Shown: positions 52,982 through 64,000 of the stretch, one piece after another
How positions within the stretch are numbered: position 1 is the first letter of the stretch
Layout: the number at the start of each line of letters is the position of its first letter
Source: Alistipes sp.
GTDB lineage: Bacteria; Bacteroidota; Bacteroidia; Bacteroidales; Rikenellaceae
NCBI GenBank assembly: GCA_017629035.1
Contig: JAGBXX010000023.1
Span: forward strand, 62,001-126,000
DNA: 64,000 nucleotides
Direction of reading: 5' to 3'
Program-made: the position numbers and the translations under genes
Notes under the pieces: generated by a model
Told to the model about the DNA's origin: nothing
Seen by the model: the letters and a program-made list of their open reading frames with translations, nothing else
Database searches by the model: none

Positions 52982-55900
52982 TCAGAATATAACTGTTTTA
53001 AACTCGTTTTCACTCCACATCTCGCACTGCGTCATAATGGTTTCGAGGGCAGCTTCCTGGCCCTCGGGCGGATATTTGTACTTTTTGAGTAGGCGCTTCA
53101 CGATGCGACGCATACCAGCACGGGCACTCTCCTTCATCGTCCAGTCGATAGTCTTGTTGGTGCGTAGTGCATCGGTCAATTCGCGCGTGATGGCGATAAG
53201 TTGCTCGTTTGTATAGAAGTCCTGCACCGCCTCGGGCTTAGTTATAGCATCGTAGAAGGCCAACTCCTCGGTCGAGAGATTGAGTTTTTTGCTCTCCTCC
53301 TCGCCATTGACGATTGCTCTCGCAGTCTTCAAAAGCTCTTCGATAACCTCTTCGTTGGTGAGCATACCTTTGAGGTAGTTACTCATCGCATTCGCTAAAA
53401 TCTCAGAAAATTTCTCTGCACGCACAGTGTTGGTACGCTGATAAACCTTTATCTGCTCGGCTATCAGTTTGCGCAACAACTCAACAGCAAAGTTTTTCTG
53501 CTTCATCTGCGCTATCTCCTCCAAGAATTTCGGGTCGAAAATCGAAAACTCCTCCTTGATATCCGAGAAGAGGTTTATCACGCCCTCACTCTTAATGCTC
53601 TGTTTGAGCAGTTCGTTGATGCGCTCGTTAATCTCGCGGAACGAGATCTTACCCTTACCCTCCACACGCGTCAGCAGTGTGCGCACCGCCTCAAAGTAGG
53701 CTGCCTCCAATCGTTCCTCACGCTGTAAGAGACTCTGACATAGCGACAACGACTGACGGAGCAACAACGCCTCTTTGATATATAAGTTTTTGGTTTCCTC
53801 TCGCTCGGGTGCTTGCAGAAAATCGACACCGCCCGCAATCGCCGCAGCTCGTGCCATATCCGACTCGCCGTAGAATGCCGAATAGTCGAAGCCGTGCAAT
53901 AGGTCGCGACACACATCCAACTTCTTCTGAAATTCGGGATATGCGGTCTTTGAAATATCGGTGTCGCCATAGTTCTTGCGGTCACGAATAGTGTAATCGT
54001 TCATCGCCTGCTTCAAAGCGGAAGCTATGCCCACATAATCGACCACCAAACCGCCTTGCTTGTCGCCAAACACACGGTTTACACGAGCAATAGCCTGCAT
54101 CAGGTTATGCCCCGACATCGGCTTATATACATACATCGTCGAAAGCGATGGTACATCAAATCCCGTGAGCCACATATCCACCACAATCACCACTTTCAGC
54201 GTGCTGTCGTTATCCTTAAATCGCTTTTCGAGCTCCTTTTTGTGGGCATCGTTGCCGATTATCTCACGCCACTCCTCGGGGTCTTTGTTGCCCGAAGTCA
54301 TCACCACAGCCAACTTTTCGCTCCACGCAGGGCGCAACTCCAAGATGCGACGGTAAATTTTCATCGCTATCGGGCGTGAGTAGGCAACAATCATCGCCTT
54401 GCCCGTCTGCTCATATTGGCGGTAGTTTTCGTAGTGGTCGAGAATGTCGCCCACGAGCGAATCTATCGTTTCGTCTGCGCCAAGTATCGAATCAAGTCGG
54501 CCCAACTCACGCTTGCTCTTCTCGATTGCGTACTCCTCCGCCTCGTCGGCCATTGCATCGTACTCATCATCTATGCGGCGGAGCGTCGCCTCGTCGAGGT
54601 GCAGATTTATCACTCGGCTCTCATAGAACACAGGGCGTGTAGCACCATCGGCCACCGCCTGCGTCATATCGTAAACATCTATGTAGTCGCCGAACACCTC
54701 GCGTGTCGAGCGGTCTTTCTGCGAAATGGGCGTACCCGTAAAGCCAATGTAGGTAGCATTTGGTAGCGAGTTACGCACTCGGCGTGCTGCACCCACCTTT
54801 ACTCTACCCTCACTGTCGATTTTCTCGGTCAGACCGTACTGGCTGCGGTGTGCCTCGTCGGCTATGACCACGATATTTCGGCGTGTCGAGAGAGGCTCTT
54901 CGCTCTCCTCGAACTTCTGCATCGTGGTAAAGAATATGCCGTTTGCCTCGCGCTCACGCAGCAGGTCGCCGAGGTGCTTTCTGCTCTCGGCCTGTACGGG
55001 CGTTTGGCGTAGGAAGTCGGCACACTTGGCAAACTGACGGTACAACTGTCCATCGAGGTCGTTGCGGTCGGTGAGGATGACGATTGTGGGCGACGATACC
55101 GCCTCCTGCAACCGCTTGGCGAAGAATACCATCGAGAGCGACTTGCCCGAGCCCTGCGTGTGCCAAAACACTCCGCCCTTGCCATCGGTTTGTGTCGCCT
55201 CGGCTACCGAGTTTACAGCCTTGCGCACCGCGAAGAACTGATGATAACCAGCGAGAATCTTTGCGCTCTGCTTTTCATCTTTCGAGAAGCAGATGAAACC
55301 TCGCAAAATCTCTATCAGGCGCGCCTTGTCGAACATTCCCGAGAACAACACATCGAACGCTGCGTAGCGGTTTATCTCGCTTGTTCCGTCAACGGTTTTC
55401 CACTCCATAAAGCGGTCCTCGCCGGCGGTTATCGTGCCTGCCTTCGAGGTCGCCATATCGCTCATTACGCAGAATGCGTTATAGACAAAGAGCGACGGTA
55501 TCTCAATCATATAGTTGCGCAGCTGGGCGTATGCCTCCGACACATCGGTATTCTCGCGCGAGGGCGATTTCAGCTCCACAACTACCAACGGCAAACCATT
55601 TACAAATACCACAATATCGGCCCTGCGCACCGAACGCTCCTCTACGGTCCATTGGTTGGCAACGGTGAAGTTGTTGCGTAGGGGCGTGCCGTAGTCTATG
55701 AGCTTTACGCGCGTTGAACACTGCTCCTTACCGTCGAAATAGTTTACCTCGACACCATTTTGCAGATAGTCGTGAAACACCTCGTTGCGCTGCACAAGCG
55801 AGCCACTCTCGATGTTGCGAATCTTCGAGATAGCCTCTTCTATCGCCTCACTCGGAAGAGTTGGGTTTATGGCATAGAGCGACTGCTGCACAAGGTCTAT

Positions 55901-56017
55901 GTGCAACGGCTCGGTGTATTCGCGCTCTACGCTTGGGCCATAGACGTATTCGTAGCCCAGCGTATCACGCATCAACTCCAATATCGCATTCTCAAAATGT
56001 GCCTCGGTAAAGTGCAT
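52982..56017 (-). CDS. hsdR: Type I restriction enzyme subunit R
   Basis: A 1011-residue HsdR of normal length. The N-terminal nuclease carries RRADIVVFVNG and VVVELKSP (PD-ExK catalytic residues). The SF2 motor follows: motif I HTQGSGKSLSMV (about 290), motif II IADEAHRSQ, motif III GFTGTPI and the MWLTGFDVP / QAIARVNR region. The C-terminal helical domain binds the HsdM-HsdS core. It cleaves unmodified DNA after ATP-driven translocation. It is last in the operon, with its own TACCTTTG box at 56040-56047. Confidence 0.95.
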   Translation of the reverse strand: MHFTEAHFENAILELMRDTLGYEYVYGPSVEREYTEPLHIDLVQQSLYAINPTLPSEAIEEAISKIRNIESGSLVQRNEVFHDYLQNGVEVNYFDGKEQCSTRVKLIDYGTPLRNNFTVANQWTVEERSVRRADIVVFVNGLPLVVVELKSPSRENTDVSEAYAQLRNYMIEIPSLFVYNAFCVMSDMATSKAGTITAGEDRFMEWKTVDGTSEINRYAAFDVLFSGMFDKARLIEILRGFICFSKDEKQSAKILAGYHQFFAVRKAVNSVAEATQTDGKGGVFWHTQGSGKSLSMVFFAKRLQEAVSSPTIVILTDRNDLDGQLYRQFAKCADFLRQTPVQAESRKHLGDLLREREANGIFFTTMQKFEESEEPLSTRRNIVVIADEAHRSQYGLTEKIDSEGRVKVGAARRVRNSLPNATYIGFTGTPISQKDRSTREVFGDYIDVYDMTQAVADGATRPVFYESRVINLHLDEATLRRIDDEYDAMADEAEEYAIEKSKRELGRLDSILGADETIDSLVGDILDHYENYRQYEQTGKAMIVAYSRPIAMKIYRRILELRPAWSEKLAVVMTSGNKDPEEWREIIGNDAHKKELEKRFKDNDSTLKVVIVVDMWLTGFDVPSLSTMYVYKPMSGHNLMQAIARVNRVFGDKQGGLVVDYVGIASALKQAMNDYTIRDRKNYGDTDISKTAYPEFQKKLDVCRDLLHGFDYSAFYGESDMARAAAIAGGVDFLQAPEREETKNLYIKEALLLRQSLSLCQSLLQREERLEAAYFEAVRTLLTRVEGKGKISFREINERINELLKQSIKSEGVINLFSDIKEEFSIFDPKFLEEIAQMKQKNFAVELLRKLIAEQIKVYQRTNTVRAEKFSEILANAMSNYLKGMLTNEEVIEELLKTARAIVNGEEESKKLNLSTEELAFYDAITKPEAVQDFYTNEQLIAITRELTDALRTNKTIDWTMKESARAGMRRIVKRLLKKYKYPPEGQEAALETIMTQCEMWSENEFKTVIF

Positions 56018-56048: not shown

Positions 56049-56492
56049 TTAAAATATTGCTAATGCCACAGATATTATCGCACAAATAGCAGCAATGGCC
56101 GAGAAAATCAATGTCCATTTAACCATTTGCTTACTTCTCTTTTGTTCCTCATCGGCTTGTTCTTTGACTAATCGTTCACGCTCTTGCTTGAGTATGTTGA
56201 TTATCGCATTAATACTTTGGCGATAGGCATTACATCTGCTTTCATCCCTTACATCAGCGGTATTATAGTTCCGTCCAAAAAAGAAATCTTGTTGAGAGGA
56301 ACCGAAGGATACACTCTGAATAGCATTTATCGCTGATTGAGATGCACTTATCTTATTAAGTATGGCGATTACGATTCTCTTTGCTTCCTCACCGGTCTTT
56401 GACATATCACTATACGATGATGTATAACTCAAATATACACTTACCTGAGTTATCGCATCATCTAATCTATGTATTTGCTTTGCGTAGTCCAT
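56049..56492 (-). CDS. Tail-anchored membrane protein 2 of the hsd locus
   Basis: A 147-residue protein with no family that I recognise. Residues ~1-120 are helical and polar (MDYAKQIHRLDDAITQVSVY, then a heptad-like QSINAIINILKQERERLVKEQ). The C-terminus is a single membrane helix (WTLIFSAIAAICAIISVALAIF) with a short basic stretch before it, so the body faces the cytoplasm. The start touches the stop of the previous gene, which means coupled translation. It lies between hsdS and hsdR and, like its partner, is AT-richer than hsdR. Confidence 0.7.
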   Translation of the reverse strand: MDYAKQIHRLDDAITQVSVYLSYTSSYSDMSKTGEEAKRIVIAILNKISASQSAINAIQSVSFGSSQQDFFFGRNYNTADVRDESRCNAYRQSINAIINILKQERERLVKEQADEEQKRSKQMVKWTLIFSAIAAICAIISVALAIF

Positions 56493-56867
56493 TTATTTCA
56501 AACTATATATGCCAAAAATTAAGGTAAGTACAATAGATACTATAGCTATTCCAAATGACCACCAGAATCTACAATTATTAGTCTTTTCGTTTTTGTCATT
56601 GAGAATATCCCTGAGAATATTTATAAATTCACTGACTCCATTTTTAATAGCTATAGACCTCATTTGTAATTGATATACATCTGCGCTTGCGGTTTCGGGC
56701 TCAGGTCTAAACTTTATTTTACTTACTAAATATGCCTGATCGCTTAATTTCTCTTTTTGTAATAGTTCTACTACCTCATTTTGCAATATGATAATTTCAC
56801 CTAAAGACAGAGTAGAAGACAATTTCTGCAATTGAGCTATATATAATGTAACAGTTTTACTATCCAT
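56493..56867 (-). CDS. Tail-anchored membrane protein 1 of the hsd locus
   Basis: A 124-residue protein without a recognised family. The first ~95 residues are helical and polar (LYIAQLQKLSSTLSLGEII, LLQKEKLSDQAYLV), and one C-terminal membrane helix follows (FGIAIVSIVLTLIFGIYSL). It starts 4 bp after the hsdS stop and abuts the next gene. Two tail-anchored proteins side by side suggest a membrane effector or sensor pair, comparable in layout to small membrane effectors in abortive-infection systems, but this is inference. Confidence 0.7.
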   Translation of the reverse strand: MDSKTVTLYIAQLQKLSSTLSLGEIIILQNEVVELLQKEKLSDQAYLVSKIKFRPEPETASADVYQLQMRSIAIKNGVSEFINILRDILNDKNEKTNNCRFWWSFGIAIVSIVLTLIFGIYSLK

Positions 56868-56871
56868 TTTT

Positions 56872-58098
56872 CTACAATTTTATCTCTCCATTCATCAATT
56901 TTGGCAATAAGGTATCACGGAGCGTGGCGAGGGTAATGTTTTCTTTCGCCAATTTTATTTTATTGTTCAGTAATGCATCTGCTATTTTAGAGAATTTTTC
57001 TATAACGGCAAATGGTGGTTGCACAACTACAAACTTATCAATATCAGCCTTACCTAAATGGCTTACCGTTGTGCCAGTTTTATAACTTTGCACAAACTCC
57101 AACTCGGGCTTTACAAGAAACATTACATAGTAATTACTAATGCTATCTTGTTTGCCAACAAATTTACAACAACGCTGATTTAGCACACCTCTTTCGCCCA
57201 ACCACAAACAAGGTTCAAACTCTGCATCCATTCCTGCAACAACATCTCCTGCATTTATAAACTCTGTATTTGAGAGAATTTCTTTAGTATAATATTGTGG
57301 GGCAAATGTTTTTAAATCTCTAATTCTAATTAGAGGATTACCTTCTTTCTTTTCATTAAAAAGAGATGATTTATACGGAGCCCCATATATAACTTTTATA
57401 TATTTGTATATATCTCCCACACTCCACCCTTCGGGGATCTGACCGAGTTCGGAATCAACCATTTTGCCACCTGATGATTTGTAGGATTTACCGTCCTCAT
57501 TTGGGAAGTCAAAATCGACAAACCACTGTTTATAGAGAGCTTGGGCTTGGAGTTCGAGGTTGGTGTTTATACGGCGATTATTCTCGATTTTATCATCTAT
57601 CGCAACCAATATCCCCGCAATCCTCCTCTGCTCCGCCAACGACGGCAACGAAATTTCAAATTTAGATAATGTTTCTATTGTAAGAGCTTTTTGTGTAGAG
57701 CCAATTGCCTTACTATCTATATTCATCTTGCCGATTGGAGATAAAAACCAATAGTAAAGATAGCGACTATCAATACCTTCAAAGTTATAGAACCAAGTCA
57801 AATTACCGTCTTTGAAATAGAATACTTCATCTTGAACAATATATGGGATACCCAGTGTGCCAACAGATGTAAGTAACATATCACCCTTTATAGGGACACC
57901 GTGTTTTGCCTTTATTTCATCATAGCGTTCTTGACTAATATATAGTTCAGTAGAAATCTTGTTACCTTTTTGCTTTTCTATGATTTCTTTACCCCTATAA
58001 AATGGAATGCCAGAATCTTTGTATTCTTTGGCAAAGATTCGCTTGCTACTGGAAATTTTACACAAATCCCCAATCTTATATGTGTTCCACGAAGTCAT
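56872..58098 (-). CDS. hsdS: Type I restriction enzyme specificity subunit
   Basis: A 408-residue HsdS with two target-recognition domains (about 1-145 and 220-365). Each is followed by a conserved helix: LPSLAEQRRIAGILVAIDDK near 152-171, continuing to a spacer helix with ALYKQWFVDFDFP, and a final LRDTLLPKLMNGEI. The pattern fits a bipartite recognition site. There is one hsdS, and I see no second inverted partial copy, so phase-variable shuffling is not evident here. It starts 3 bp after abiH. Confidence 0.9.
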   Translation of the reverse strand: MTSWNTYKIGDLCKISSSKRIFAKEYKDSGIPFYRGKEIIEKQKGNKISTELYISQERYDEIKAKHGVPIKGDMLLTSVGTLGIPYIVQDEVFYFKDGNLTWFYNFEGIDSRYLYYWFLSPIGKMNIDSKAIGSTQKALTIETLSKFEISLPSLAEQRRIAGILVAIDDKIENNRRINTNLELQAQALYKQWFVDFDFPNEDGKSYKSSGGKMVDSELGQIPEGWSVGDIYKYIKVIYGAPYKSSLFNEKKEGNPLIRIRDLKTFAPQYYTKEILSNTEFINAGDVVAGMDAEFEPCLWLGERGVLNQRCCKFVGKQDSISNYYVMFLVKPELEFVQSYKTGTTVSHLGKADIDKFVVVQPPFAVIEKFSKIADALLNNKIKLAKENITLATLRDTLLPKLMNGEIKL

Positions 58099-58101
58099 AA
58101 A

Positions 58102-59076
58102 TTATAATCTAAATGCATCTGAGTTAAATACGAAAAATAGGCGATTAGCAATATCTTCTATTCTTCCGATATCAGTAATATTCATTTTCCTTAATAGGCG
58201 GCGTGTGGCAGATCGGTCCAAAGAACCGAGTTTCTGTCTGCGAGTAGAGCGGACAGCATCTGGTAGGTAAAGATGCTCTATAACAACTAAATCATTTCTT
58301 CGCATAAGATTCTCGCCTATTAATTGCCACCAACGAGCATCGGTTTCACCGAGAGAAACGCCAAACAATACTATCACTTGAGCATTATTTATTATCTGTT
58401 CACATTTATATTGTCCAATATTTTGCATTGCACGATTAGATTGCTCCTTTAATAAAAGGTCTTTAATATCCTCGTTTTCTCTAAAACTCAGATTTGCGAT
58501 TTGAGCATCATTGTCGACACCAATAATTATTGAATCGCCCAATCTTCCATGTAGGTGATATAGGCTGCGCAAAACTATACTACTATTAATAATTGACTTT
58601 TCTTTAAAGTCCGTCATTGACAAAATCGTTTCGATAGTGTTGGTATAATTTAGCGTTATTATAGATATGTCTTTATTTTGAGTATATTTGCGAGTATAAG
58701 AACTAAATCGTTGCTTATCTATTTCCCCTAAGTGTCTATTGGGAGCGGCAAGATCTATCTCAAATTTATCTTTCAATTCTTTTGATGATGTAAATTTCGC
58801 CTCCTCTTGATTTAAATAATTTTGCAGATAATCACTCAGTTCGTAATAGAATTGCTCAAACTCTACTGAATCTTTTGACATTTCTGTAAAATTACCCAAA
58901 GCTTCTTCCATATCCGACCATAATTCATTATCATCGGATATGTATTCTTTCATTATTTTTAGCAAACGGGAACATTCTGTAGAATCACTTAGTAAGTAAT
59001 TGTAGAAATCAGGATAACCTGTTGCCAAGCCTTGGGCTTTGTCAAGTCCATTTCCCAAAATATATACGATATTCAT
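58102..59076 (-). CDS. abiH: AbiH family abortive-infection protein
   Basis: A 324-residue protein with AbiH family signatures: an opening IVYILGNGLDKAQGLATGY (nucleotide-binding-like), ITLNYTNTIE (about 140), YHLHGRLG (about 174) and VIVLFGVSLGETDARWW near 235-251. The layout is reminiscent of SIR2-type NAD-binding folds. AbiH proteins block phage growth in Lactococcus by an unknown mechanism. Here it sits inside the hsd operon between hsdM and hsdS, 48 bp after hsdM. Its AT-richer sequence suggests a later insertion. Confidence 0.88.
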   Translation of the reverse strand: MNIVYILGNGLDKAQGLATGYPDFYNYLLSDSTECSRLLKIMKEYISDDNELWSDMEEALGNFTEMSKDSVEFEQFYYELSDYLQNYLNQEEAKFTSSKELKDKFEIDLAAPNRHLGEIDKQRFSSYTRKYTQNKDISIITLNYTNTIETILSMTDFKEKSIINSSIVLRSLYHLHGRLGDSIIIGVDNDAQIANLSFRENEDIKDLLLKEQSNRAMQNIGQYKCEQIINNAQVIVLFGVSLGETDARWWQLIGENLMRRNDLVVIEHLYLPDAVRSTRRQKLGSLDRSATRRLLRKMNITDIGRIEDIANRLFFVFNSDAFRL

Positions 59077-59124: not shown

Positions 59125-60636
59125 TTACAATTTATACCCAATACTTTCGAGTTGTTTTTTGATTTCGGCTTCGAGGGTGTGCGACTGCTCAAAGAGGGTG
59201 GCGAGTTCGCCCGTAAGGCGGGCCATCTTCTCCTCAAATGGCTCGGCGTCCTGCTCCTGCTCGGCAATGCCTACGTAGCGACCAGGAGTAAGGATAAAGT
59301 CCTGCTCTTTAATCTTGGCGATATCGACCACAGCGCAGAAGCCCTTTTCATCGGCGAGAGTGCCCTCGGTGAACTGCTTATAGGTGTCGGCAATGCGCAT
59401 AATATCGCCCTGAGCGCCATCGGTCAGCTCACGCAGTTTGCGTGTAACCATTGTGCCGAGGTTGCGGGCATCGATAAACAGGGTCTTGCCCTTCTGCTTC
59501 TTCGCCTTATTGAAAAACCAAATCGAAACGGGTATCTGCGTAGTGTAGAACAACTGCGACGGCATAGCCACGATGCAATCGACCAAGTCAGCCTCGACCA
59601 ATCGACGGCGAATATCGCCCTCGCCACCGCTTTGGCTCGACAGCGAGCCGTTAGCAAGCACAACGCCCGCACGGCCCGCAGGTGCGAGGTGGTGGATAAT
59701 ATGCTGAATCCACGCAAAGTTAGCATTGCCATTAGGTGGTGTGCCAAACTTCCAGCGCACATCGTCAGCGAGCTTGTCTGCGCCCCAATCGGAGAGGTTG
59801 AAAGGAGGATTTGCCAAGACAAAATCAGCTTTCAAGGTCGGGTGGCAATCGCCAAAGAAGGTATCGGCGTTATACTGTCCGAGGTCCGCCTCAATACCAC
59901 GAATAGCCAAGTTCATCTGCGCCATCTTCCAAGTAGTGGGGTTAGAGTCCTGACCATAGACCGAGATTTGGTTGATGTTGCCGGCGTGGCTCTCGATAAA
60001 CTTTGCCGACTGCACAAACATACCGCCCGAGCCACAGCAAGGGTCATAGACACGACCTCGGTAGGGCTCCAAGACATTAACAAGGGTTTTCACGATGCAA
60101 GCAGGGGTGTAGAATTCGCCCGCCAGCTTACCCTCAGCCTCGGCAAACTTCGAGAGGCAATATTCGTAGGCACGACCGAGGATATCCTTCGAGTCGCCGT
60201 GCTCGTGCATCTTAATATTGGTGAACAGATCGACCACATCGCCCAAGCGGCGTTTGTCGAGTTCTGGGCGAGCAAAGTTCTTCGGCAGAATATCTTTGAG
60301 TCGACGGTTCTCTTTCTCGATAGCACGCATAGCGTTGTCGATAGTAGTGCCAATCTCGGGGGTATGAGCCGCCGCAGCGATGACCGACCAGCGAGCCTCG
60401 GTGGGAACATAGAAGATATTCTCGGCAGTGTACTCGTCTTTGTCCTCCTCGAAGCCCTCGTCCTCATCGACAAGTGCTTGGTAGCGAGCCTCGAACTTAT
60501 CCGAAATATACTTCAAAAAGATAAGACCAAGCACCACGGATTTATACTCCGAGGCGTCGAGGTTGCCGCGCATCTTGTCCGCCGCCTTCCAAATCTGATC
60601 TTCAAAACCGATATCTGCTGTATTGAGTTTAGCCAT
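59125..60636 (-). CDS. hsdM: Type I restriction enzyme methyltransferase subunit
   Basis: A 503-residue HsdM. The N-terminal helical domain (LNTADIGFEDQIWKAADKMRG) is followed by the catalytic domain with the SAM motif DPCCGSGGMFVQ (about 208) and the N6-adenine motif NPPFNLSDW (about 288). The C-terminal helix interacts with HsdS. It methylates adenines for host protection and forms the core enzyme with HsdS. First of the operon. A long open frame on the opposite strand (59113-60645) is an antisense artefact. Confidence 0.95.
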   Translation of the reverse strand: MAKLNTADIGFEDQIWKAADKMRGNLDASEYKSVVLGLIFLKYISDKFEARYQALVDEDEGFEEDKDEYTAENIFYVPTEARWSVIAAAAHTPEIGTTIDNAMRAIEKENRRLKDILPKNFARPELDKRRLGDVVDLFTNIKMHEHGDSKDILGRAYEYCLSKFAEAEGKLAGEFYTPACIVKTLVNVLEPYRGRVYDPCCGSGGMFVQSAKFIESHAGNINQISVYGQDSNPTTWKMAQMNLAIRGIEADLGQYNADTFFGDCHPTLKADFVLANPPFNLSDWGADKLADDVRWKFGTPPNGNANFAWIQHIIHHLAPAGRAGVVLANGSLSSQSGGEGDIRRRLVEADLVDCIVAMPSQLFYTTQIPVSIWFFNKAKKQKGKTLFIDARNLGTMVTRKLRELTDGAQGDIMRIADTYKQFTEGTLADEKGFCAVVDIAKIKEQDFILTPGRYVGIAEQEQDAEPFEEKMARLTGELATLFEQSHTLEAEIKKQLESIGYKL

Positions 60637-60931: not shown

Positions 60932-63900
60932 TTATATCACACACTCTTTTTGTTTTACTCGTTCAATCTCTCTGATAATACCATTAAACACGTGTTCCGG
61001 AGTGTCCCACCACTCAACCGACCAGATGTTATATGTATTCCAACCGAGTAATGCAAGTACAGCAGGTGTAGTTACATCACGGTCGTGGGCAGTGTGCGAG
61101 GCCACATAGTTATATCCATCGCAGAGCAACCCCAACAAGTAGTGGTCAGGATTTTCAGGGTCGATAATACCGATATCAACACGATATTCCGATGAGCCGA
61201 TATTTGTATTCACGGCATAGCCTTTTGCTTGCAGTGCCTTTGCAACGGACTCCACAAAGGCGTCTTTTGCCTTTGTCTTCACTCCATAATCCATATGCAT
61301 CAGCGCAACCTTACCTCGCTCGGCATATTCAAGGAACGATTTGAGGTACTGCACTCCCTTTGCATTTGAGCGGTAGAGGTCAATATCCTCGGCTTTGAGT
61401 GATGAGAATACCTTCATCTCGTATCTTGCACGCGATACTGCAACATTCAAACGGCGCTCTCCACCATCACGGTTGAGCGGACCGAAGTTCATAGCCACCT
61501 TGCCGAACTTATCACGACCGTAGCCTACCGAGAAGATAATCACATCGCGCTCGTCGCCCTGCACATTCTCCAAGTTCTTGATGAAAATCGGTTCGTGCAT
61601 TTGCGCTGCTACGACCTCCAAGTCGGAGTTCATGTGAAGCATATCGTTCAGCAAATCCTCAATTAATGACTGCTGATTGACATTAAATGTTACAACGCCT
61701 ATACTTTGTGATGCCGTTTGCGGGTCGGATAGTCGTTTCTGAATCTCATTAACTACAGCCTTTGCCTCCTCCTTATTATTACGACCTGCACCACGCTCGT
61801 AGATGCCCTTAACATACTCAAACGACACCTTTGTTGCCATATCATCATTTGATGGGAAGGTCATCAGTGAGTTCTTGTAGAAGTGTCGATTGCTGAATGT
61901 AATCAGACTCTCGTGTTTGCTACGATAGTGCCACAATAGGTATTTCTGCGACATTGAGAGGGCCAAGCAATCTTCGAGAATACTCTCCAAATCCTCACTC
62001 TCGGAGTGTTGCTCGCTGAAATTATCAGTCATAAAGAAGCTGGTAGGCGGTAACTGATGCTCGTCGCCCACAATCACTACGCTCTTGCCTCTCAATATAG
62101 CAGTCACCGCCTCGCAAGTAGGCATTTGCGAAGCCTCATCAAAGATAACCAAGTCAAACTGTGGCCAATTCGCTCCAAGATATTGCGATACTGAAAGCGG
62201 ACTCATCAGCATTGCAGGACACATTCTCGATATAAGGTCTGGAATTGTCTCAAAGAGCTTGCGGATAGATACTCCACGACAACCATTTCTGATACACTTC
62301 TGCAAGAAGCCTACATCGGAACTCTGTGAGGCCTCCTTACGAAGCGCAGACAACATTGCCGACAACCTAACGACCAACTCTCGGCGAGTCAACTCCTCAA
62401 ACTCCTTGCATAGTTTGCGAAAACGCTTAATCTTATCCTCAAACAGTATTGACTGGAAGAAACTCAACTCCTTGTCCTGGGATATATAGTGGTTTGCGCA
62501 CTGCTTGTATAGGCTCTTTCGATAAACATTGACAATGTCGAAGTGAGCAAACAGACCTCTCTCAAATGCCTCAACGACTGTCACAAGTCCATTATCGTAC
62601 ACCTGCTTACGAACAACGTTATACGCCACCTTACTACGCAAATTAACAAGGTCTTTGCTCCATCGTTTGATGGTTTTAGCAATACCATCAAGCCAATCCA
62701 CACCATCCTGTTTCACTGATGCAACAGCCAACTCCTCAAGCGCAGAAACATTTGCAGAGAAATCCTTATATGAGGTAATATAATCGTTCAGCTGTTTACT
62801 ATTCTGCTCCCTGAATTGACAGCATCCACTAGCTATATGAGCCAACATATCGCTGTCATTCAACTGCAATGCACACAAAGCTGATTGCAGCTCACCTAAT
62901 CTCTCGTAGTATAATTGGAATGTTGATGCGTTCAGGTTCCTCAGCTCTCGTTTGATATTATAGGTACTGCCGAGATAATCGATAATATCATTGACCTCGC
63001 CCTGCAATTTATGTATTGCACTGATTTTGTCGCACAATGCTGTAACCTCGTTGTCGCTCACTCGCGCTCCGCTTTTTGAGTATGAGGAGAGAGTGTTCGC
63101 AACTGCACGACGGTCAAGATATTTTGCCAAGAACCACTTCTGCTCTGCCTCCATCCAACGCTGGCGCAATGCGGTGTAGTTCACATCAAGGATATGCTCA
63201 TTATACTGGGCAAACAGTTCTGACTGTTGAGCCTCGAGTTTGCCCTGTAATTCGGCAACCTCTTTTAAGGTCTTCAGCAGATTATCACCCAGCGAAGAAA
63301 TGAGAGTTGAAGGCAACTTCTCTCCGAGAATAAACTCTGCAACAAGCACCAGTGCCTCATACTGTTCCTTTGACAATTTGTCGGCATTGTATTCTATCAA
63401 TGACGCAACAGACCTGGCAAGAGTATGCAGGTTATTTACCTTGCCGGAAATCTCACCGACAAGGCTCTGAATCTGCTCCCTGATATCGGGCGAATAGACC
63501 AACATACCAATCTCTTGCAATGAGTTGTTGTATTCATAGACTACGCTTGCTGCCGATTGGAAATCCTCAAGCAGTTCAGTATGGTCACACAATAACTCCG
63601 GCGTTAGGGCGTCAATGTATTCATCCGAGATTTTAATTGTGCTATTTTCGGGAACATCTATTGCCGAATATTGCGCAAAACAGTCATAGATAGACAATCC
63701 GCAAGGATAAACCTTGTGGAGTCGCTCAACGTGTGCATTTAGCTCTCGTTTGAGTTCATCAAGATGTGAAGCCTCTTTTGCAAAAGCATCATCACCCATC
63801 TGTTGCACAACCTCTGAAGTCTTGCGAAGCTGGTCCATCACCAAGCTCTTCTTAGTTTTGTTGGAGTGCAACTCCAAACAGAATGGATCAAGGCCAATAG

Positions 63901-64000
63901 CAGTAAGGCGTTTTTGTACAACCTCCAATGCAGCCATCTTCTCAGCAACAAGCAGTACTCGTTTGCCGTGGAAGAGGGCGTTGGAGATGATATTGGTAAT
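60932..64000 (-). CDS. DUF4011-type SF1 helicase with C-terminal VSR-like nuclease, 5' end outside window
   Basis: The minus frame is open from 60932 to the window edge. The segment upstream of the first internal Met (63937) reads ITNIISNALFHGKRVLLVAE, which is the strand after the Walker A motif in DUF4011 helicases, so the gene continues beyond 64000. At least 1021 residues are visible. A ~500-residue helical insertion precedes motif II (VIFDEASQMP), motif III (VVIVGDEHQLPP), WHYRSKHESLI, then ENVQGDERDVI and RLNVAVSRA. The C-terminal ~90 residues (FVESVAKALQAKGY, YRVDIGIIDPE, LLGLLCDG) resemble VSR/MTES_1575-type nucleases. This combination is often found in defence islands. Confidence 0.82.
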   Translation of the reverse strand: MTNIISNALFHGKRVLLVAEKMAALEVVQKRLTAIGLDPFCLELHSNKTKKSLVMDQLRKTSEVVQQMGDDAFAKEASHLDELKRELNAHVERLHKVYPCGLSIYDCFAQYSAIDVPENSTIKISDEYIDALTPELLCDHTELLEDFQSAASVVYEYNNSLQEIGMLVYSPDIREQIQSLVGEISGKVNNLHTLARSVASLIEYNADKLSKEQYEALVLVAEFILGEKLPSTLISSLGDNLLKTLKEVAELQGKLEAQQSELFAQYNEHILDVNYTALRQRWMEAEQKWFLAKYLDRRAVANTLSSYSKSGARVSDNEVTALCDKISAIHKLQGEVNDIIDYLGSTYNIKRELRNLNASTFQLYYERLGELQSALCALQLNDSDMLAHIASGCCQFREQNSKQLNDYITSYKDFSANVSALEELAVASVKQDGVDWLDGIAKTIKRWSKDLVNLRSKVAYNVVRKQVYDNGLVTVVEAFERGLFAHFDIVNVYRKSLYKQCANHYISQDKELSFFQSILFEDKIKRFRKLCKEFEELTRRELVVRLSAMLSALRKEASQSSDVGFLQKCIRNGCRGVSIRKLFETIPDLISRMCPAMLMSPLSVSQYLGANWPQFDLVIFDEASQMPTCEAVTAILRGKSVVIVGDEHQLPPTSFFMTDNFSEQHSESEDLESILEDCLALSMSQKYLLWHYRSKHESLITFSNRHFYKNSLMTFPSNDDMATKVSFEYVKGIYERGAGRNNKEEAKAVVNEIQKRLSDPQTASQSIGVVTFNVNQQSLIEDLLNDMLHMNSDLEVVAAQMHEPIFIKNLENVQGDERDVIIFSVGYGRDKFGKVAMNFGPLNRDGGERRLNVAVSRARYEMKVFSSLKAEDIDLYRSNAKGVQYLKSFLEYAERGKVALMHMDYGVKTKAKDAFVESVAKALQAKGYAVNTNIGSSEYRVDIGIIDPENPDHYLLGLLCDGYNYVASHTAHDRDVTTPAVLALLGWNTYNIWSVEWWDTPEHVFNGIIREIERVKQKECVI

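Follow-up and report, generated by a model that had tools for sequence, protein, structure and literature searches.

Exchangeable cargo genes, two of them for small proteins with a predicted membrane helix, in a type I restriction-modification operon of Alistipes

The operon and its AT-rich block

We analyzed a 64,000-nucleotide stretch of an Alistipes sp. genome (hereafter, the window; taken from contig C18 of a 1.8 Mb draft genome that is 84.7% complete), which carries a type I restriction-modification (RM) operon with three further genes between hsdM, hsdS, and hsdR. Comparison with related operons showed that the locus undergoes exchange and that the window holds one of its alleles; cargo genes are swapped in two slots, one between hsdM and hsdS (the X slot) and one between hsdS and hsdR (the Y slot). 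The cargo of the window consists of an abiH gene in the X slot and two genes in the Y slot, here called TM1 and TM2, which encode small proteins with a predicted C-terminal membrane helix. The genes are as follows, in window positions:

59125..60636, minus strand: hsdM, the constant left arm of the exchange locus (Pfam N6_Mtase, E 4.4e-108, and HsdM_N; NPPF and GSGG motifs)
58102..59076, minus strand: abiH, cargo of the X slot (Pfam AbiH, E 3.6e-38; PADLOC AbiH, E 4.3e-7)
56872..58098, minus strand: hsdS (Pfam Methylase_S, E 4.4e-27)
56493..56867, minus strand: TM1, 124 amino acids (aa), cargo of the Y slot (C-terminal membrane helix; homologue in locus L021)
56049..56492, minus strand: TM2, 147 aa, cargo of the Y slot (C-terminal membrane helix; homologues in 9 of 268 family genomes, its own included)
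52982..56017, minus strand: hsdR, the constant right arm (Pfam HSDR_N, E 1.1e-40, and T1RH-like_C, E 1.6e-89; NCBIfam hsdR, E 4.7e-176; GSGKS, DEAH, and ELK motifs)

The minus-strand order is hsdM-abiH-hsdS-TM1-TM2-hsdR with successive gaps of 48, 3, 4, 0, and 31 bp, and the gene coordinates bore out the order, strand, positions, and 0- to 48-bp gaps given by an earlier reading made from the letters alone (the sequence-only reading). HsdM, HsdS, and HsdR are all present, open, and co-directional, and together would form a type I RM system; the strings listed for HsdM and HsdR are what we take to be the motifs expected of these subunits. The block between hsdM and hsdR is indeed AT-richer, as that reading had noticed by eye. 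The GC content and the GC content at third codon positions were.530/.637 for hsdM and.522/.658 for hsdR (window GC,.476), compared with.344/.286 for abiH,.364/.335 for hsdS,.301/.248 for TM1, and.374/.331 for TM2; the AT-rich segment thus comprises four genes, hsdS itself among them.

The X-slot protein belongs to the AbiH family by the Pfam cut-off (132.6 bits against a gathering score of 30.9), is a putative suicide (abortive-infection) protein, and shows nothing special otherwise. It contains GNGLD, NYT, and HLHG strings, which may be Sir2-like motifs (compare PMC3506569, excerpt). It had no match in NCBIfam and none among solved structures at 0.1.

TM1 and TM2 each have a single hydrophobic stretch by the Kyte-Doolittle scale (best 19-residue means, 2.4 and 2.8), which lies at the extreme C-terminus, and by hydropathy both would be tail-anchored proteins. 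Neither had a Pfam or NCBIfam match over the cut-off, and the single helix and the missing family had both been recognized correctly beforehand. Below the cut-off, TM1 came closest to a poxvirus entry-protein family (E 6.8e-4; 20.3 bits, the cut-off being 23.4) and TM2 to EssA (E 0.014). No ATPase family, the anticodon-nuclease ATPases of PrrC and RloC included, was among their Pfam matches at E ≤ 1. Against solved structures, a profile search with TM2 gave an E value of 0.14 at best, and a single-sequence search with TM1 gave nothing at E 1; in PHROGs, the best E values were 0.011 for TM2 and 0.052 for TM1, with no function attached. A two-row TM1 profile gave one weak hit, to the heme dechelatase HmuS, with E values of 0.0018 (whole chain) and 0.014 (matching stretch). 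Profile positions 22-120 aligned with HmuS 1353-1454, and each has a hydrophobic stretch at its end; we did not build on this hit. We also dropped PADLOC PDC-S35 as a name for the TM2 family after one of nine members matched it (E 8.2e-4). A comparison of the TM1 and TM2 profiles (hhalign) gave a probability of 10.6% over 51 aligned columns of the C-terminal part, which backs the idea of an ancient duplication for the tail region only.

Exchange of cargo and specificity regions between alleles

A search with HsdR matched 19 of 180 genus genomes at E ≤ 1e-100. Among the non-self full-length proteins of the genus, nine were 96 to 98% identical to the window HsdR, five were 79 to 80% identical, and one was 35% identical. 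We read 18 of the 21 HsdR places, the window included; the other three (G457:C3, G429:C14, and G481:C3) lie at contig starts. In the 11 nearest alleles, the DNA identity to the window (blastn) was 90 to 94% for hsdR and, in the eight loci having hsdM, 91 to 94% for hsdM. The latter identity broke off at the hsdM stop codon (59125-59126) in all eight. It returned at the middle and end of hsdS in 10 of 11 alleles and at the hsdS start in two, and again at hsdR or at most 190 bp before it, reaching into TM2 in L011, L013, and L017. The conserved pieces of hsdS are about 57514-57660 and 56868-56946, joined in the two alleles by the start (about 58060-58098), with the variable target-recognition regions between them. 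The X slot, the hsdS recognition regions, and the Y slot are therefore what varies. The relatives' alleles thus differ between constant arms, in agreement with the proposal that the block is swappable cargo of an hsd operon.

The second hsdS recognition region is common to the window, L013, and L029 (89 to 90% DNA identity). Their X slots hold AbiH in the window, a PDC-S31 protein and a 248-aa membrane protein in L013, and a 204-aa membrane protein in L029 (L021 and L029 come from one metagenome-assembled genome with 5% contamination). Among the Y-slot genes of the three, only TM2 is common, between the window and L013. Because a common second region goes with different X cargo and different Y sets, cargo and target specificity reassort.

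Exchange has also cut through a cargo gene. Compared in 15-codon bins, the TM2 gene of L011 matches its L012 counterpart with 82 to 100% identity as far as codon 105 and with 51 to 71% identity thereafter, while its identity to the window gene is 40 to 60% up to codon 105 and 93 to 96% thereafter; its 3′ part, to about 56207, is near-identical to the window together with hsdR. We read this gene as the product of a crossover within the gene, with an L012-type head and a window-type tail.

Second copies of an operon's own gene ends were present in 12 of 42 operons, and in 9 of 42 at E ≤ 1e-6; L044 was kept out of the nine, as its extra hsdS genes explain the second copy. Control segments from the interiors of hsdM and hsdR (730 random, partly overlapping segments of 85 bp) gave three matches in two operons, all weaker than 1e-4, and none at E ≤ 1e-6. 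By coordinates, the nine scars are placed in the gaps that separate cargo genes or extend across the edge of such a gap. In L012, the hsdR start is repeated as an exact 37-bp copy that separates TM2 from the AAA/DUF4276 genes, and L013 carries a piece coding for the hsdS C-terminus between two Y-slot cargo genes. The scars suggest that, in the operons bearing them, cargo was added stepwise via recombination at conserved gene ends.

As separate observations on these alleles, a short hsdS frame in L020 (L020:11710-12642) aligned to the window HsdS with its 34 start residues only, and the same genome has an in-frame stop in hsdR. A TACCTTTG box resembling the Bacteroidales -7 consensus element precedes hsdR in the window (56047) and in L011, L013, L017, and L020, and is absent before hsdR in L018, L019, L022, L024, and L029; since the box occurs in some alleles only, hsdR may have its own promoter there.

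Distribution of TM1 and TM2 and the membrane bias of the cargo

TM2 was found in 8 of 200 genomes of a family sample with the single protein (P0001) and in 9 of 268 family genomes with a nine-sequence profile, which added no new member, as it had been built from those nine matches. Eight of the nine copies lie in hsd operons. Six belong to the hsd type of the window (the window, L011, L012, L013, L017, and L018), all in the Y slot, with that of L017 the most distant at 24% identity. The other two, in L014 and L015, belong to another kind of type I operon, with an HsdM about 25% identical to that of the window, and sit between its hsdM and hsdS; hsdS, an AAA_21 protein, RloB (E 1.8e-19), and hsdR follow TM2 in L015, and L014 ends inside hsdS. 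TM1, searched for in the genus set and an order sample, occurred in 2 of 180 genus genomes, the window and L021 (33% identity), directly after hsdS in both; these two are also the rows of its profile. Both genes are therefore recurrent same-strand residents of hsd operons (TM2 in eight of nine cases, TM1 in two of two), and the neighbour count called for by the sequence-only reading found the link with hsd genes that it anticipated. In the searches made, we encountered neither a majority of homologues away from hsd loci nor a match to a housekeeping family, and the GC difference was real.

On the other hand, TM1 and TM2 do not form a fixed pair. The neighbour of TM1 in L021 is a 256-aa membrane protein, not TM2, and TM2 occurs without TM1 in eight of nine loci, so that the two are separable modules. 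This also bears on their supposed translational coupling: the TM1 stop codon TAA is directly followed by the TM2 start codon ATG, as coupling would have it, and coupling remains a conjecture for genes that are not always together.

Across the order, each of the single proteins (P0001 and P0002) matched its own genome only (1 of 295). The TM2 profile matched 4 of 277, namely, its own genome and three weak C-terminal matches (E 0.004 to 0.009; model positions 78-148, 82-147, and 102-148). Two of these, L075 and L076, have no hsd gene nearby by profiles and were not counted as members; counting all three would place TM2 within, or possibly within, hsd operons in 8 of 12 cases, the surroundings of one being unseen. 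Neither protein had a match in phages and plasmids at E 0.01, or in viral contigs, where the single-protein scans could pick up close relatives only. A DNA scan for TM2 with two short tail patterns, which is no census, found at least three loci (L018, L011, and L012).

The cargo of the close operons is diverse. The soluble part includes Fic, AbiJ_NTD4, PIN_12, AAA_13, Hypoth_Ymh, and PDC-S31 proteins, an AAA_21 protein accompanied by a DUF4276 protein just below the cut-off, and an AAA_15 protein with a weak OLD-like Toprim end. A seven-protein cluster around the Fic protein of L018, the one member scanned with Pfam, spans several genera. Among other operons, GmrSD adjoins hsdS in the more distant L030, and L060 has a second AbiH in an hsd operon. 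The membrane cargo of the close set falls into nine clusters, whose scanned members had no Pfam match over the cut-off; for one two-helix family (L018_1/L028_1), a SLATT-like identity found no support and was dropped.

Predicted membrane cargo was present in all 17 close operons (HsdR at least 79% identical), compared with 5 of 25 other cargo-bearing operons. The same bias was seen per cargo protein (29 of 44 close against 6 of 77 distant) and per cluster (9 of 20 close against 4 of the 53 clusters absent from the close set; Fisher p 0.0006). Because the close operons exchange genes with one another, these counts lack independence. AT-richness does not explain the membrane calls, as similarly AT-rich distant cargo yielded the 6 of 77. 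One of the 29 calls, an AAA ATPase of 391 aa in L012, is probably false. Among control open frames (80 to 400 aa, upstream of the operons, some of them not genes), 9 of 101 were called membrane proteins.

A first automatic count had given 27 of 37 for the genus set and 4 of 60 for the order set. Eight cargo proteins, all in the close set, were then placed by hand (AbiH, the L012 TM2, and one each in L017, L019, L021, L024, L027, and L028), because opposite-strand frames or contig ends masked their genes; without them, 16 of 16 close operons have a membrane protein, and L027 drops out. L042 (HsdR 80%, three-helix membrane cargo) was excluded from both groups, and L043 (HsdR 76%, no membrane cargo) was counted among the 25. 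The order set used 30 of 35 non-self places (left out: G279, G145, G188, G048, and G267); its script made no HsdR call in L042 and no HsdS call in L047, L049, L050, L066, and L067, and found no cargo frame in L046.

Frames of at least 80 aa occupied the X or Y slot in 23 of the 24 operons of L042 to L071 with hsdS and hsdR called; in the remaining one, L046, the contig ends upstream of hsdS. Two dairy Lactococcus plasmids, L078 and L079, encode an HsdR 66% identical to that of the window, and this hsd type has probably been transferred widely to reach them. The operon of L078 is flanked by two ISS1 elements, and that of L079 has a DUF3800 gene between hsdS and hsdR. Among annotated plasmid relatives of HsdR from other phyla, two of the three examined (L079 and L080) have other genes in this position.

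Possible function, alternatives, and neighbouring genes

The small membrane effectors of the cyclic-oligonucleotide-based anti-phage signalling system (CBASS) and of type III CRISPR have one or two membrane helices and are proposed to be cell-killing parts. TM1 and TM2 are likewise short proteins with a membrane helix, but their sequence match to such effectors is not worth a claim, and their presumed sensor would be the restriction enzyme rather than a cyclic-nucleotide signal. DarTG2 is a pair of a DNA-modifying toxin and an antitoxin, without a membrane part. In Escherichia coli it sits between hsdS and hsdR, the slot of TM1 and TM2, in an island shown to be phage-defensive, according to excerpts of PMC12255303. 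PrrC is a further precedent. As excerpted, PMC3874165 and PMC12707154 place it within the hsd operon of the type IC system EcoprrI and propose it as a back-up at restriction failure; the same excerpts and those of PMC2610378 describe it as kept silent by its type I enzyme and active once the enzyme is inhibited. TM1 and TM2 are embedded in the same way, whereas PrrC cuts tRNA and has an ATPase domain and they are small, membrane-anchored proteins without a recognizable enzyme domain. The rlo genes, named after Campylobacter jejuni, and RloB are variable open reading frames inserted in hsd loci (excerpts of PMC2610378 and PMC10440598); the operon of one TM2 homologue, L015, itself carries RloB and an AAA_21 protein, yet TM1 and TM2 match neither RloB nor the PrrC/RloC ATPases, and the cargo here is biased toward the membrane. 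Sir2-like AbiH enzymes were linked to type I RM in 2012 (PMC3506569, excerpt). Accessory genes in type I operons are thus known, and embedded cargo as such is nothing new. In the open-licence literature searched, we found no account of membrane proteins as hsd-operon cargo or of the present arrangement in Bacteroidales, and the membrane bias, the TM1 and TM2 families, and the scars are apparently unreported there.

Our preferred account, held tentatively and with somewhat less than an even chance of being right, is that the window carries an exchange-platform type I RM locus with TM1 and TM2 as PrrC-like membrane back-up effectors. In this platform, hsdM and hsdR are the near-constant arms, and the hsdS recognition regions and the two cargo slots are replaced, probably via recombination in short conserved gene-end stretches. 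TM1 and TM2 are most likely anchored in the inner membrane by the C-terminal helix, their helical heads facing the cytosol, and would be silent while the restriction enzyme is intact. Once the enzyme is inhibited or failing, they would harm the membrane of the infected cell, as PrrC harms the cell by tRNA cutting, and so protect against phage; small charged heads with a terminal membrane helix would suit proteins that assemble to breach or depolarize a membrane. By position, company, and precedent, AbiH, TM1, and TM2 together may form a back-up layer, and a membrane-acting back-up role is the most likely function of TM1 and TM2 by our analysis. The link between a DNA-sensing restriction complex and a membrane effector, raised by the sequence-only reading, is one that we infer. 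In a lineage-wide form, which we consider rather unlikely, the membrane component would be an obligatory third function, with the restriction enzyme as the sensor, interchangeable unrelated membrane proteins as the effectors, and specificity and effector swapped independently by gene-end recombination.

Several results weigh against the back-up account. TM1 and TM2 show no resemblance to known families of pores or effectors, and the PADLOC CorA-like and 2TM-effector profiles each matched one of nine TM2 members (E 0.0078 and 0.027). The window itself has no gene-end scar, with one copy only of each of the five ends tested. The TM2 homologue of L016 is outside any hsd operon, alone after a gene taken by eye for a glycosidase. 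Twenty of the 25 more distant cargo-bearing operons have no predicted membrane protein and mostly soluble cargo, so that type I enzymes do not generally require a membrane component. The free reassortment of cargo with hsdS regions would equally fit cargo that merely lodges in the locus: the locus would be a recombination niche, and AbiH, TM1, and TM2 would be independent defence or selfish genes gaining co-expression and a ride. Because reassortment and stacking fit it equally well, this is the strongest rival, although we consider it less than probable. The many unrelated families housed in the X and Y slots, the stepwise stacking suggested by the scars, the L016 homologue, and the occupation of this slot elsewhere by DarTG2, which is a toxin-antitoxin pair complete in itself (PMC12255303, excerpt), are all in its favour. 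It sits less well with the distribution of TM2, which occurs in two type I operons that are distant relatives and, apart from these, in just 1 of 268 family genomes, or with membrane cargo in all 17 close operons, which a neutral niche does not predict, though gene exchange makes the 17 not independent.

A weaker rival, which we regard as improbable, holds that TM1 and TM2 are not toxins and instead tether the restriction enzyme to the inner membrane, the entry site of injected phage DNA. EcoKI has reportedly been placed at the membrane in older work, a charged helix-like stretch directly precedes the terminal membrane helix in the sequence, and the 17 close operons have membrane proteins of several unrelated families. 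That same variety would require near-identical HsdM and HsdR to bind many unrelated membrane proteins, and the 20 distant operons lacking one speak against a tether as well. More doubtful still is a role of TM2 in immunity or control, restraining AbiH, another cargo protein, or HsdR. TM2 adjoins hsdR in the window, L011, L013, and L017, but other cargo separates the two in L012 and L018, TM2 lies between hsdM and hsdS in L014 and L015, and it has different neighbours in different operons.

Type I operons are frequent and mostly regarded as sets of three genes; should the platform prove general, untested defence genes could be sought in every hsd locus. Several membrane families without a Pfam name already surface in the close hsd operons, and the gene-end scars hint at how hsd loci acquire cargo stepwise. 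If the membrane proteins do answer to the enzyme, the long-standing idea of a suicide back-up to restriction would extend from RNA-cutting to membrane-acting proteins.

Upstream of the operon, on the same strand, a long DUF4011/AAA helicase is encoded in the region of window positions 60932-64000 and L077 (G000:C18:125900-135000). It matches the anti-phage protein ProA with 1114 bits for the in-window part, the cut-off for the whole protein being 1500. Before it come genes for a Prok-JAB protein, a ThiF protein, and a number of small proteins; by eye, the small ones have an INEYGEIIR-like motif in common, and some of them have a hydrophobic stretch. This set is possibly a ubiquitin-like defence operon.

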